From assembly GCF_963678975.1 (NCBI RefSeq), contig NC_089274.1, forward strand, positions 918,001-982,000: 64,000 nt of DNA, read 5' to 3'. Position 1 is the first letter of the stretch. Each line of letters begins with the position of its first letter. The translations under genes were made by a program, and so were the position numbers. Shown in pieces: positions 278 to 30,298 of the stretch. The notes below the pieces were generated by a model. It had not been told where the DNA came from. It ran no database searches and saw nothing but the letters and a program-made list of their open reading frames with translations. The stretch comes from Dysidea avara. Its lineage: Eukaryota; Porifera; Demospongiae; Dictyoceratida; Dysideidae.

Positions 278-3200
278 TTAATAAGTTGATGCTGTTCTAT
301 GTACAACTGGTAGAGGGGTGTGTCCAAAGTCTTGCAGTATCCATAGCAATGATAATGCCATACATACAAACGGGATCAGCAGGCACCACTTGAGGTTGTC
401 TTGGAAATGAAGATTAAACCTGTTTAACAAGTTATACAACCTGTTACGGTTACATAATGTCTCACTTGATGTCAAAGTAAGCGTGGTCACAAAATTGGTG
501 TTCATTACACACTCGGAGGGTGACAGTGCCATGCATGGGGGAGGGGGGAGTAGGGGAGGTAACAACATAAGTTGAGCTGTTAACTGAACACTCCACTACT
601 TCATCATGGAGTAGTTCATTGTTGCCTAGCAATACCTGTACACATAAAGGTTCTTTATTAATACCATGTCTCACATTAGGGTTACAATTAGTGTTAAATA
701 CAGGACACAACTCACCGACACTTTGACACTCTTGTAACGTAGGTAGTGACCACAAGTGAGGTGAAATGTTAGAGAGAAGTGACGTCCTGACACCTCTCGT
801 TGCTGTAAGCTTCGTTCTGATGGGACCACTGTAAACTGTATATACAACATCATCAAAACACTGCATTTATGCAGTCCAAAAGGTCAGCATGCCACACTAG
901 TTAGTTGACTGATACGATAAAACATGACATTATGTTGTATGTTTAGCCTTCTCCACATGATGTGATTGTTACATGGCCTCCGAATCCACCACTAATCGTT
1001 CACACACCAAATTTACTAGTAGGGAATCCTAAACGTCTTAATCTTCTCTGATTTTGAAATCTGAAATCTCTGAAAATTGTTGTTGTATAAAGTTCTGTAT
1101 ATTTCCTGTATTTGCAGCATCACGTATGCTAAGTCCAGCAACACCGCCAGCTTGCAGAGAACTCGAGAAAGGATTCCACTTATTTCCGTATACTACGTAT
1201 CACATGATGCTACTATTCTGGATATCTAAGATTTTAAATGCTCTGAAATCTTGCCATAAATTGCTTGAAATCTTGCCAAATCGCAAGATATGAAATCTCG
1301 TACAGGATTTTTTCCGAGTTACGGACCCCCCGTACCACACTATGTACAATGATGCATTCTTCATGGACTTACCAGTGTGTCCCATTCATCTTTGCTGACA
1401 GCGAAAGGTGTCGATTTGGCGGTAGCGCGTGATGGCTTCCTTTTGTAACAGAAATCATCTGTATTTTCATAGTGGCTACTAGCAAGAATTTATAATGGTG
1501 TAGGGCCCTAACACATTATACACTCCTGCTAGGGTGCTAGTAGGTGCTTTTCAAACAGTTCTTGATTCGTATTGCTGTGTAACGGGTTGAACATAGCTGA
1601 CAACTAAGCGTGATGGATTCTTCACTTTTCAGATGATAATTGATAGCTGGGGTGCGTGGCAGCATTTCTTTTTTTGATGCGGTATGTGTGGGTTCACCAA
1701 TCATAATAATTTTATTTTACAAAAAGTTTAACAAACAAATACACACAAAAAAATGGAATTTTCAACTAGAGTAGGGACCTTATCACATCGATAAAAAGTA
1801 CTGAAACAAGCTGGAGTAGTGCACAATATTAAATCACAGTAAAACAATAAGAAGTGTTATATCCCTACTGTGCATTTCTATTATAGTATCTTGAACACAG
1901 TAAGGATATAACACTTCTTATTGTTTTACTGTAATTTAATATTGTGCACTACTCCAGCTTGTTTCAGTACTTTTTATCGATGTGATAAGGTCCCTACTCT
2001 AGGATGTGCACTTGTAAAAACAATTAACAAACTACACCACACAAGTGTGTTAGCAATCCATTTAATACCTACCATACTGGTCTTGTGAGTAAACAAGTTT
2101 TGACCACTCCTCCAATACTCGGTGTGACCTCTATAAGAATAATGTACCACATAATTCGATTACTGATCACTCACAAGTTTGGCTGTTGAGTACTACGTAC
2201 ACAAATTAAGGAGCCGTCTCTAGTGGCAACCAGTAGCTCCGCCCCTATGGTACAGGTGATCACATACAGGTACAAGCCCACCCACCTGGTTTGCTGGGTA
2301 CAAAATCATCCACTAATAGACCAGAGTAACTAAATGCTCCAACTTCACTGCCAGTCCGGCAAGAACTATGCCCTTCAATTACATTGACTACTCCTGCCAT
2401 ATCAACCGTGATCTAATACAGCCAATGAAAAGTGCTGTAATAGAGGGTGTGGCTGACAGTACAGTATCCAATAGTTACCATATGGGTACAAATTTGAGTG
2501 TTATGCAATTTTGATGATCAACTAACGAGTCAGCACACAAGCTGTCAACGAGGGGGTTACCATTAAGTACAGTGAAAAGGTCTCTATTATTTGTTCAACT
2601 GAATATAAGGACTCAATAGAAAACTCTTCATAGCAAGGATACACACTATGGTCCCAGCAGTACCAGTACAGTAAGGTGTACACCACAACAATATCCTCTT
2701 GAAGTTATGTACAATAATGATCACTACTTCAAGGAGGGACATATCCCATTCATCAAAAACATCATAGACACACCCACTATTATAAAGCTCACAACGTGCA
2801 GGATGTAGGTGCGTTTTTCTGTTGGTAGTCCTAGCAACAACACAGGAGCCTCCATGTTGACTCGTAAATGAAATGGATAGTTCTCCACCAGCTGACCAGT
2901 AGCTCCATGCACTGCCCATACTGACCTGAGGAGATCATGTGACTCATGTAATTACATGCTCTATTAATAGAAGAAAATGGGTAAGATAGATATTATAAAT
3001 CATGACCTCAGTAATGAGGCCAAAGTCATTCCAAGTGGTTAGGTCATTACAAGTTTGGAATTTTCAACTAGAGTAGGGACCACTGTACATCGATAAAAAG
3101 TACTGAAACAAGCTGGAGTAGTGCACGATATTAAATCACAGTAAAACAATAAGAGGTGTTATATCCCCACTGTGCATTTCCGTTATGGTATCTTGAGCAC

Positions 3201-6200
3201 AGTAGGGATATAACACCTCTGATTGATTTAATATCGTGCACTACTCCAACTTGTTTCAGTACTTTTTATCAATGTGCTATGGTCCCTACTCTAGTTGAAA
3301 ATTTGTTATTTTTTGTGTACTTGTTTGTTAACTTTTTTGTAAAATAAATTATTATGACTGGTGAACCCAAGCATACCGCATCAAAAGAAACCGCGCACTC
3401 CAAACCGTGCATCATTTGATTCTGAGTTAGAAAACAGAATGTAGCATGAGGTCTAGCTAGTACTTTCCAAGGCAAATTTAACTTAGCATGATATAATTTG
3501 GAAATAATTTTTGAATAAAATTTGTAACACTGGAAGAATAAATGCTACTAAGCTAGATTTACACTATGTATAATATTAATTTTAGACTACACTCCCCAAA
3601 AGGAATTTTGAAAAATTAACCTGAGATTGAATATTTGGTGGCAATTTTGACTGAAGTTCAATGTTTATTAAAGTTCAAATACTACTAAACTAGAAAGCAG
3701 AAATAGTAGGACAAGCCACATGTAGGCTACACTAAAGCACAAACATAGGTCAAAATAGTTGTATAAATATCTGCTATAGATATTGCTGGTGTGTGACTTT
3801 CATCTCCAGATAATTTCTTTTCACATCAAGCAGGGTAGGAATGGAGACAGCAAAACCAAAACTCCAGGTATTTTAGTTGTTTAAACTGATACACTGTTCC
3901 TGACTGTTTTATTAGAGTAAATGGCTGCTTTATTTTGATCTCTAAAATGTTGAGGGGCTCTAACCCACCTAGTTCCCCCTTGTGTTATATGGGTAGCATT
4001 TTCATGGACATATTATACACAGACATATATAAACTGCACCGAATTACTTCTAAAGTGCCTAGCTATGTACAATTGAAAAATTTTTGAACACTGGCCCCAC
4101 CCTAATCCACTCCTGACCAGACCAGTTGGATTGCTTGTTATGGCCCTGGAGGTAATATTATGAGGTCACGAAGTACACCTTAGCTATGATTGGAACCTAT
4201 TTGACATGGTCACTATACTACTATTTTTTTACTCTTCTACACCCTATACACTTACCCAGTGCTGGTTACTATGACAACATCCACGAGGCCATCACCTGAC
4301 ATGTCAGCAAAACGAACACTTGTAGTTATGGGGTCCTGCATCTCATGTTCCCATAGCAATGTTCCATCATGATTTACACAGACAACATTACCACTTTGAT
4401 CACCAACTATCATGTTGAGGTTGCCATCACCGGTAATGTCATGTACGGCTACCTAGCAACAATATGGGTTATGATTTTAATAATAATCCTAATATGGACC
4501 CATTAGGGCCAGTAAAGCAGCATGGAGTGACAATATTGAAACTGCTGAATGTAGTCCCAGTCAAACTTGATTCCAAAGTAAGCCAAACAGTCTGGAATCC
4601 GGCTGTATGTGACATACCTACCCACCTGTGATGTAATGGAGTCCACTGTTATGGGGAATCCCCTCCTGTTAGTAAGGTCATGTCCTGACAAGGTGTAGAG
4701 CTTTCCATTGGCTGATCCTATGATGATGTCATAGCCAGTTCCTGGTGACAGCTTAACGACAGTGGGTGTGGCCAGTAGATACGCAGGTTGATTAGATGAT
4801 GCCTGTGATATACAATAATATCCTAACTCAGTATACTAGATGTTATGTGACATCACATGATCAGCCACACCTTTGTAGTGTCTAGGATAACATGAGACAA
4901 GACCACATCCTGCTTGATGTCCATTACCATGACAACAGCAGACAGGAAATTGACCAGTTCATCAGCATGTAAACTGAGCTTCTCCAAACGGTGAGCATCA
5001 CTAAGAACAATAAGAAAACCACAAGGAATAAAATGTTTCAAAATGAAGTCACTAAAAGTGATGACCTGCTTTTGCAGGGACTCTTAAACTTATGGACTGG
5101 TCCAAACTGATATGCAATTTGTTATTTTAGAACTATACTCTGCCATTTCGTTTGGGATCTAAATCAAGCGCAAAATAATTCTTCAAAATTATACATGAAG
5201 CAATAAATACTTGAAATATATAAGAGTTCACAAACAGAAATCACTGAGTGTGACATCATTTCAGAAATGCTTACAGCAGATGTACCATAAAGTGCCAGCA
5301 CAAGTGATCAAGTACAGTGACACTTCTCTAAAAGGTCAAGTAGAACATCCTTTAGGTGTGAAATTGATTCATCTGTTTAACACAGCCACTTATTTACTGA
5401 GACCAAAAAATGTAGGCCACAGATAACCAGGTGATCTGTACCTCCTCACAAAAGGTATAAATCATAAAGTGCTACCTAGCTACAAAGAATACTGTGTGTG
5501 AGTGGCTGAAAGGTTCTAGGACGCACATAGAACAATACTACTGAGTGCTCACCATTAACAATTCACACACACACACACATGTACGCATGCTTACTACAAG
5601 TTAATAAACAAGTTCATGATAGTGTTACGATATTGGTTGGTAAATATACTGAAAGATTAGAAAGTACACAATTAATTTGTATACTTGGCTGTTTGCCTGA
5701 TGAGACCTGTCAACTGACATACTGCCATAGCTTAGCAGGTTCTACCAGTGGTGGCAAACGTTACTAGTAACTGATCGTCAGTTATTGTGGTGTTGGTAAG
5801 ATTTGCTGATTATCTGACATAATTTATTATGATGACAGTAATGATGTGATGCTTAATGTTTTATGCAGCAGTGATACTGATTACTGCCAAAAACAAACTG
5901 ATAAACAATTTCTGATGCTATAGCAATGCATTACTACTTAAATTGCATTACAAATTGTAGTGAGCTGGTGAAGATGGTCTGAGAATTATTCTGTGCAAAC
6001 TAGTATTAACATCACACATGTTTCAACTCAACTGCACTACAGTACCAAACACATTTGACAGACCATGCGCAGTACATGTGACAACATCCCCCCCCAGGCA
6101 CTACATAACTGACCTATACTGATAAGGATCATAGTAATAGGTAACTGGAATGACCAACTCTGACACTATCCCATCATCATTGAGATCAACTAATACTGGA

Positions 6201-28389: not shown

Positions 28390-30298
28390 TCAGCTTGGTG
28401 AACTGCTTGTAAATGATTTCTCCTTCATAGAAGATTCCAACACAGTTGCGCTTGACAAAGTTTGTTTAGATATGAGATGGCGGTAGTAGTAGACAATAAC
28501 TCCACACAAGATCAGAACAGCCACCATAATGACCACACAGATACAGAGTAGTACTATGAACATGTAGAAGACAACAATCGTCTCATGATTGTCATCGTCT
28601 GTGTCATGTTCTCTACCCAATGGTGGTGAAGCTCTTGTAGTTGTGCTTGGTGTAACAGTGCTGGTCATTGTGCTTCTTGTTGAGGTGGTCTTGATTGTGG
28701 AGGGAGTTGAGGTGATAACCAGAGGTTCTACATAAAAGGAGACATGTAATAAACAATTGAGGTGACTACTAAATAATGCATAGTGACATGTTCCAGACTA
28801 CACTACTTCAGAGTGACTTGTAATAAACACTAAAAGTGTCACTTACCACAACCGGATTGTTCAGTGTCTTCATCATCACAAGGTGGTCCAGGTCTTCCTG
28901 GAGTAGTTGGTGATGGACGATTACAATAGTTACTGAAGCAACAGGTTATGTTGAATGATGACTTGTTCGTACAAGTGAACTCTCCTTGTACCCCAGCATG
29001 TACACAAGAGGTAGTATGAATACCATCTCCCATGCTGTACGAGGCACAGGCATAATCAGTTTCACAAACTTCAGGCCCATCCGTACACTGACTGCAGTGA
29101 CACATAAACTGAACACCCGGCCTGCGAAGGTCTATTTCTGTTGCAGTTGGTTCTTCAGTTGTGGGGAATATTGGGATGTCAATGATTCCTGTGTCTGGCT
29201 TGGTTGGCATGCCTGTTTGCTGTGGACTTGCAGTATTCCCGATTAGTTGAGGTATGTAACTTGTCGTTGCTGTCATACTAATCGGGGATGACGGACTGGG
29301 CCATTCATTTGGAATTTTCTCATTGTTACACAAGTCACCACGACAACATGTTGTCTTTTCATCACCACTGTGTGACTCAGTACATTTCTTTATACAACCT
29401 CTTTCGTAAGATATAACAGTACCCAATCTTCTGATAGTTGTATAACATGAATCCTTGTTTGATCTTAGAGTACACTTTTGGTTCTTGCACCTTCTACTAC
29501 CGACACATCTACAGGCAGTCTCCTGGGGCTCTTGAGTTTCTGAGAGCAAACAAGAAATCATCAATTACAACTAAAGTACAGATTAATTAGAAGGGACATG
29601 TCATACACCACAAACATTCACCATCAAGGTGATAAATAAACAGCCGGTGATTGTGGACACCCAGGCCCTTACTAAACCAGGCCCATTGAGAAAGCCTTCT
29701 TGTGGTTGAAAACAGTTTAGTAACCATTTAGCAACACCCTCTACAAAGTGATGGACATCACACAAACAAACAGTCCCACACTTCAGGGGAGACATGCAGC
29801 CTGGGACATCTTCTAACACATGATTTGGACAGGAAACCAAACATGGCGCCCTTGCAGCTGTCAACACAACACAACACATCAAAACTAATGGGGCAGCTGC
29901 AAGGAACAAGTTATTGTGGCATGCCTTAGCTAATCACCTTGAAAGTGCTCAGCATTACACGAGTCAGTGTCATTACAACACAAGTTCTTGTGAGCACTAC
30001 TGTCAGTGTATGCACAAATCACAGATTGTGCAGCATCAGTAACACATCCTTTGCGCAGCACAGTCCTTTGTCCTGATATATCTGTGATTAGCTGTGAGTA
30101 ACAAGCACCTCTGGCCCCAGCATCACATGTGTCTTTCTCAACAGCACAATCTGCGGTACACTCGCACATTAGACCACCTACAAGATTCAGTAGGTTATTT
30201 GTAGGTACAAGTTAATAGCAACAATACTTACAGGTTAGTAACGGTAGTTCTGCTACCATCATCACTAGTAGTACCGGTAAGTGTAACCAGGCCGTCAT
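28390..30298 (-). CDS. Membrane protein with three TGF-beta-receptor-type ectodomains, no kinase
   Basis: 445 residues in four exons: 30298-30232, 30177-29938, 29539-28847 and 28727-28390. Phases close. Exon 1 encodes a hydrophobic signal peptide (WLHLPVLLVMMVAELPLL). Three cysteine-rich modules follow at about residues 23-100, 112-175 and 249-310. Each opens with a CxC pair (CECTADC, CRCVGSRRC, CHCSQC) and closes with a CC...CN knuckle (CCNDTDSCN, CCRGDLCN, CCFSNYCN), the three-finger plan of activin/TGF-beta type I receptor ectodomains. Module 1 is closest to that family (TCDAGARGACYSQL). Linkers and stalk are Pro/Thr/Ser-rich. One transmembrane helix at about 388-413 precedes a roughly 32-residue Ser-rich tail with no kinase. 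It could bind TGF-beta-like ligands as a decoy or co-receptor, or be an Ly6-type surface protein; function is inferred. It faces PSMD11 tail to tail, 206 bp away. Confidence 0.8.

Follow-up and report, generated by a model that had tools for sequence, protein, structure and literature searches.

We analysed a window of 64,000 nucleotides of the Dysidea avara genome (C3:918001-982000 of a 550.8-Mb assembly in 108 contigs) that carries, on its minus strand, a gene for a predicted surface protein with three tandem ectodomain modules and no kinase, hereafter the triple-module gene. Its four exons are joined in frame and encode a product of 445 amino acids (445 codons). Exon 1 (30232..30298), recognised by its open frame, phase-1 GT donor and hydropathy, contains the start codon and the signal peptide, exon 2 (29938..30177) encodes module 1, and exon 3 (28847..29539) encodes module 2, a linker and module 3, exons 2 and 3 both having phase 1 on either side. 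Exon 4 (28390..28727) comprises the end of the stalk, the membrane helix, a tail of 33 residues and the stop codon. The three introns (30231-30178, 29937-29540 and 28846-28728; 54, 398 and 119 bp) have GT-AG borders and interrupt the frame in phase 1, and an in-frame TAA begins six bases upstream of the ATG. A first-pass annotation of this DNA had proposed a four-exon frame for a protein with signal peptide, three tandem modules, stalk, one membrane helix and a short kinase-less tail; the in-frame phase-1 joins bear out the exon structure, while frame, hydropathy, cysteine pattern and Pfam agree with the anatomy.

The protein starts with a signal-peptide-like stretch (residues 1-22, assigned by hydropathy with the boundary set by hand), followed by module 1 (residues 24-97, 30175-29954) and, after a 12-residue spacer, module 2 (residues 110-174, 29325..29519). 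A linker of 67 residues (residues 180-246, 29109..29309; 42% Ser/Thr/Pro) leads to module 3 (residues 247-309, 28920..29108), and a 71-residue stalk with 52% Ser/Thr/Pro precedes the only strong hydropathy stretch, the membrane helix (residues 384-412, 28578-28492, bounds set by hand). By hydropathy the protein ends in this helix and the 33-residue cytoplasmic tail (28491-28393) and not in a glycosylphosphatidylinositol (GPI)-type end. Pfam recognised neither a GS motif nor a Ser/Thr kinase in the 445 residues. All three modules contain ten cysteines, with CxC at the start and CC-x4/5-CN at the end, a pattern that fits the three-finger fold. The ten-cysteine LU pattern, which type I receptors share according to the accessible text of PMC6600238, is present in every module. 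AlphaFold2 models of exon 3 alone and of module 3 with the other two modules aligned (mean predicted local distance difference test scores of 34.8 and 44.3, respectively) were too poor to use. The tail terminates in TSSSPS (28410-28393), which may be chance given the Ser-rich tail; an SSxS terminus is typical of receptor-activated Smads.

The cysteine pattern is not a product of chance. A six-frame scan of the window found it at three places, which are the three modules, and no further module was detected by this pattern in introns or flanks. One hundred windows simulated with matching dinucleotide statistics gave 10 matches in total and at most two per window, and ten of ten cysteine-preserving shuffles gave no match to any Pfam family at E values up to 10. 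A genome search with the whole protein returned this gene only, in four pieces, although this was a loose first look that distant copies may escape.

The modules had been described as ectodomains of the TGF-beta type I receptor type, and we examined this by running each of them singly against Pfam, where the cut-offs are 20.9 bits for Activin_recp and 21.2 bits for Toxin_TOLIP. Module 1 scored 35.5 bits on Activin_recp (E value 2.1e-8) and module 3 14.6 bits, below the cut-off, and neither matched another model. For module 2, also under the cut-off, Activin_recp (15.5 bits) was surpassed by Toxin_TOLIP (18.6 bits), itself below its own cut-off. None of the three modules matched UPAR_LY6 at E values up to 10. 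As calibration, ALK4 and BMPR1B gave 37.8 and 72.0 bits on Activin_recp and matched no other model, whereas a PSCA fragment scored 48.7 bits on Toxin_TOLIP, 42.9 on UPAR_LY6 and 15.8 on Activin_recp. Since the PSCA fragment reaches 15.8 bits, a score of about 15 bits alone says little, and by this calibration module 1 is receptor-type by profile. It is also the sole PF01064 place found in the genome, and its score far exceeds those of ectodomains from receptor kinases encoded in the same genome: among seven ectodomain items from six of nine such genes (all except L010, L039 and L040), three scored 12.3-13.4 bits on Activin_recp and four gave no match. Comparison with Protein Data Bank (PDB) sequences placed module 3 nearest to the ALK4 ectodomain (E value 9.3e-5) and an ActRIIB-ALK4 fusion (8.1e-4), followed only by complement factor H (1.7) and by no Ly6 protein, and its cysteine spacing, 1-2-6-5 and 0-4, is the same as in ALK4. 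The PDB matches of module 1 were weak (BMPR1B, E value 2; PSCA, 3.6), and its cysteine spacing is near that of BMPR1B.

Other comparisons point away from a receptor origin and towards a Ly6/uPAR-like multi-domain surface protein, serving in adhesion, recognition or protease docking, that would share the three-finger fold and bind no TGF-beta-family ligand. The PDB sequences nearest to module 2 are cardiotoxins (E value 0.0028), ahead of PSCA (0.11) and ALK2 (0.41), in line with its best profile being Toxin_TOLIP. When the cysteines were held fixed, module 1 resembled Ly6/toxin fragments more than ALK4, and module 2 likewise favoured Ly6/toxin fragments. Three alignments leave some inner cysteines out of register. 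Moreover, proteins with three or more LU domains are known, as stated in the available part of PMC6600238. Set against this are the missing UPAR_LY6 match, which the PSCA fragment does produce, the position of module 1 above the Activin_recp cut-off, the ALK4 neighbourhood of module 3 and the membrane helix in place of a GPI-type end. The Pfam calibration weakens a purely Ly6-type interpretation of the entire protein, which we retain, owing to the cysteine-fixed comparison, as a possible but on balance unlikely explanation. Taken together, the type I assignment is partly supported: modules 1 and 3 probably side with type I receptor ectodomains, the former by its Pfam profile, though not by the cysteine-fixed comparison, and the latter by its ALK4 match, while module 2 is ambiguous and leans towards toxins and Ly6 proteins.

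Our preferred interpretation, held tentatively and with a little less than even confidence, is that the gene encodes a membrane-anchored single-pass pseudoreceptor of the TGF-beta receptor superfamily that has three ectodomains and no kinase and most likely binds and sequesters dimeric ligands. TGF-beta ligand dimers bring together a pair each of type I and type II receptors, as the accessible portion of PMC8235796 describes. The type I-like modules 1 and 3 could bind such a dimeric ligand by both of its type I sites, with the flexible, probably O-glycosylated linker keeping the two modules apart. The ligand would then be bound avidly at the cell surface, out of reach of the kinases, so that the protein would compete with the signalling receptors. 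A bolder version, which we regard as doubtful, would make the protein a natural multivalent trap of tandem type I-like ectodomains that forms a membrane-bound layer of antagonism in an animal rich in ligands, with tandem ectodomains being a general device of the lineage that is also used on signalling type II kinases. More speculatively still, the SSPS tail could act as a decoy substrate of type I kinases.

The same anatomy would suit a co-receptor that concentrates ligand and passes it to the kinases, raising signalling, since a long stalk bearing more than one ectodomain might serve to present it. Betaglycan is a co-receptor of this ligand-presenting kind. Known kinase-less type I-like proteins such as BAMBI inhibit, however, and we consider a trap more likely than a helper, although nothing in our data separates the two; a role as co-receptor seems to us distinctly improbable. 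That the gene is a decayed or mis-modelled receptor gene, or has its kinase exon elsewhere, would be conceivable for a model read from genomic sequence, but is very improbable given the intact 445-codon frame, the in-phase consensus splice sites, the signal peptide and membrane helix, the completeness of all ten-cysteine modules, the absence of kinase-like sequence from the window and the nearness of the convergent gene, 206 bases beyond the stop codon. A tblastn search of the window for a hidden kinase exon, with two receptor kinases of the same genome as queries, found none (best E value 0.57).

The first-pass annotation had also held that known receptors carry one such ectodomain, which is contradicted within the same genome. 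L041, a type II receptor kinase gene (C10:15832500-15842400, 3594-1433, minus strand; identified by open frame, BLAST and splice reading), encodes in a single open frame and exon a signal peptide followed by two modules of three-finger type, 36% identical to one another. This exon is followed by a phase-1 intron of less than 400 bp and then, in frame, by the membrane helix and type II kinase. Neither of the two modules was recognised by Pfam. In L038 a single kinase exon is preceded by two ectodomain exons of CCC type (C10:15478000-15487900, 2759-3181 and 5596-5915): the first encodes a signal peptide and a module, the second module exon follows 2.4 kb on, and all edges, including that of the kinase exon, are phase 1. 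It may be a second tandem-ectodomain receptor or, given that scanning 10-14 kb upstream of its sister genes L039 and L040 revealed just one module in either case, two neighbouring genes. As L041 has two tandem modules, tandem ectodomains are predicted to recur in this genome, which strengthens the case for such an arrangement, and L041 and the triple-module gene together suggest tandem duplication of the ectodomain within genes of the receptor family. We found no report of tandem TGF-beta-receptor ectodomains among the open-access papers listed, at the level of titles and abstract beginnings. Three-finger proteins with three domains, like uPAR, are known (PMC6600238, available text).

A receptor-kinase query gave at least 23 matches in the genome at E values up to 1e-8 (150 of 589 candidates scored). 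Twelve of these 23 were read as at least nine TGF-beta-receptor kinase genes, and the other 11 were weaker and left out of the count. At least five genes, on C12, are type I-like, with a GS motif over the cut-off in two; L035 is nearest to TGFBR1, and L036 and L037 were assigned by BLAST only. At least four genes, on C10, are type II-like, with L041 nearest to ActRIIA and L038-L040 assigned by BLAST together with their CCC ectodomain. The placeable receptor ectodomain exons are flanked, as in the triple-module gene, by phase-1 introns: L035, L036, L039 and L040 have phase 1 on both edges, the acceptor of L037 is phase 1 or 0, and the edges of L008 and L010 were not placed. The two GS-bearing type I genes (C12:2984254 and C12:3007481) lie 23 kb apart and are 96% identical in their kinase regions and 63% in their ectodomains, as if the latter diverged fast.

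On the ligand side the genome has 29 TGF-beta ligand matches, all 29 over the cut-off and two with an internal stop. C8 carries 17 of them, 14 within 33.78-34.06 Mb; this 0.28-Mb cluster (C8:33782109-34059518) suggests recent local duplication. The total is many compared with the counts given for other animals in the accessible texts, namely eight ligands and five receptors in the sponge Amphimedon and nine ligands and four receptors in the ctenophore Mnemiopsis, both with none of the known diffusible antagonists (PMC3169577), and eight ligands and six receptors in Halisarca, where an inhibitory Smad was not found (PMC8235796). The presence of a Chordin orthologue in the homoscleromorph sponge Oscarella (PMC11226491, available part) counts against an antagonist-free setting. 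In an animal with 29 ligand matches, a kinase-less surface protein with several ectodomains is a testable candidate for tuning of the pathway. Instead of signalling on its own, it may capture or collect growth factors of the TGF-beta type.

Among known systems, BAMBI resembles the predicted pseudoreceptor in being single-pass and kinase-less with a type I-like ectodomain, but has one ectodomain compared with three on a Ser/Thr-rich stalk here, and the likeness drawn is one of architecture. With the type I receptors ALK4 and BMPR1B the protein shares a signal peptide, an ectodomain of type I character, represented by modules 1 and 3, and one membrane helix; it differs from TGF-beta type I receptors in having three ectodomains instead of one and neither GS motif nor kinase. 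L041 likewise combines tandem three-finger modules, Ser/Thr-rich linkers and a phase-1 intron ahead of the membrane exon, but its two modules have type II-gene character and are coupled to a kinase, and the sequences are not close to those of the triple-module protein. uPAR and other multi-LU proteins also display consecutive three-finger domains, three in number, at the cell surface, yet they are described in the accessible text of PMC6600238 as GPI-anchored and Ly6-type, in contrast to the membrane helix and the receptor-type modules 1 and 3 found here. Finally, engineered traps that pair the ectodomain of ActRIIB with that of ALK4, ALK7 or ALK3 sequester ligands with altered selectivity, according to the available part of PMC8443706. 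They too unite several receptor ectodomains in one kinase-free molecule, but are soluble man-made Fc fusions of type I and type II ectodomains, whereas the Dysidea protein would be a natural, membrane-bound and type I-like one.

On the opposite strand, the convergent neighbour of the triple-module gene bears the RPN6 C-terminal helix domain, as identified by Pfam; the end of its frame and the stop codon of the triple-module gene are separated by 206 bases. About 2 kb away on the other side is a frame that we take to be flotillin-like; Pfam gave no match for the piece of it that was tested. If intron 2 were retained, translation would run into a stop two codons on (29937-29920, minus strand), and the product would, speculatively, be a secreted single module 1.
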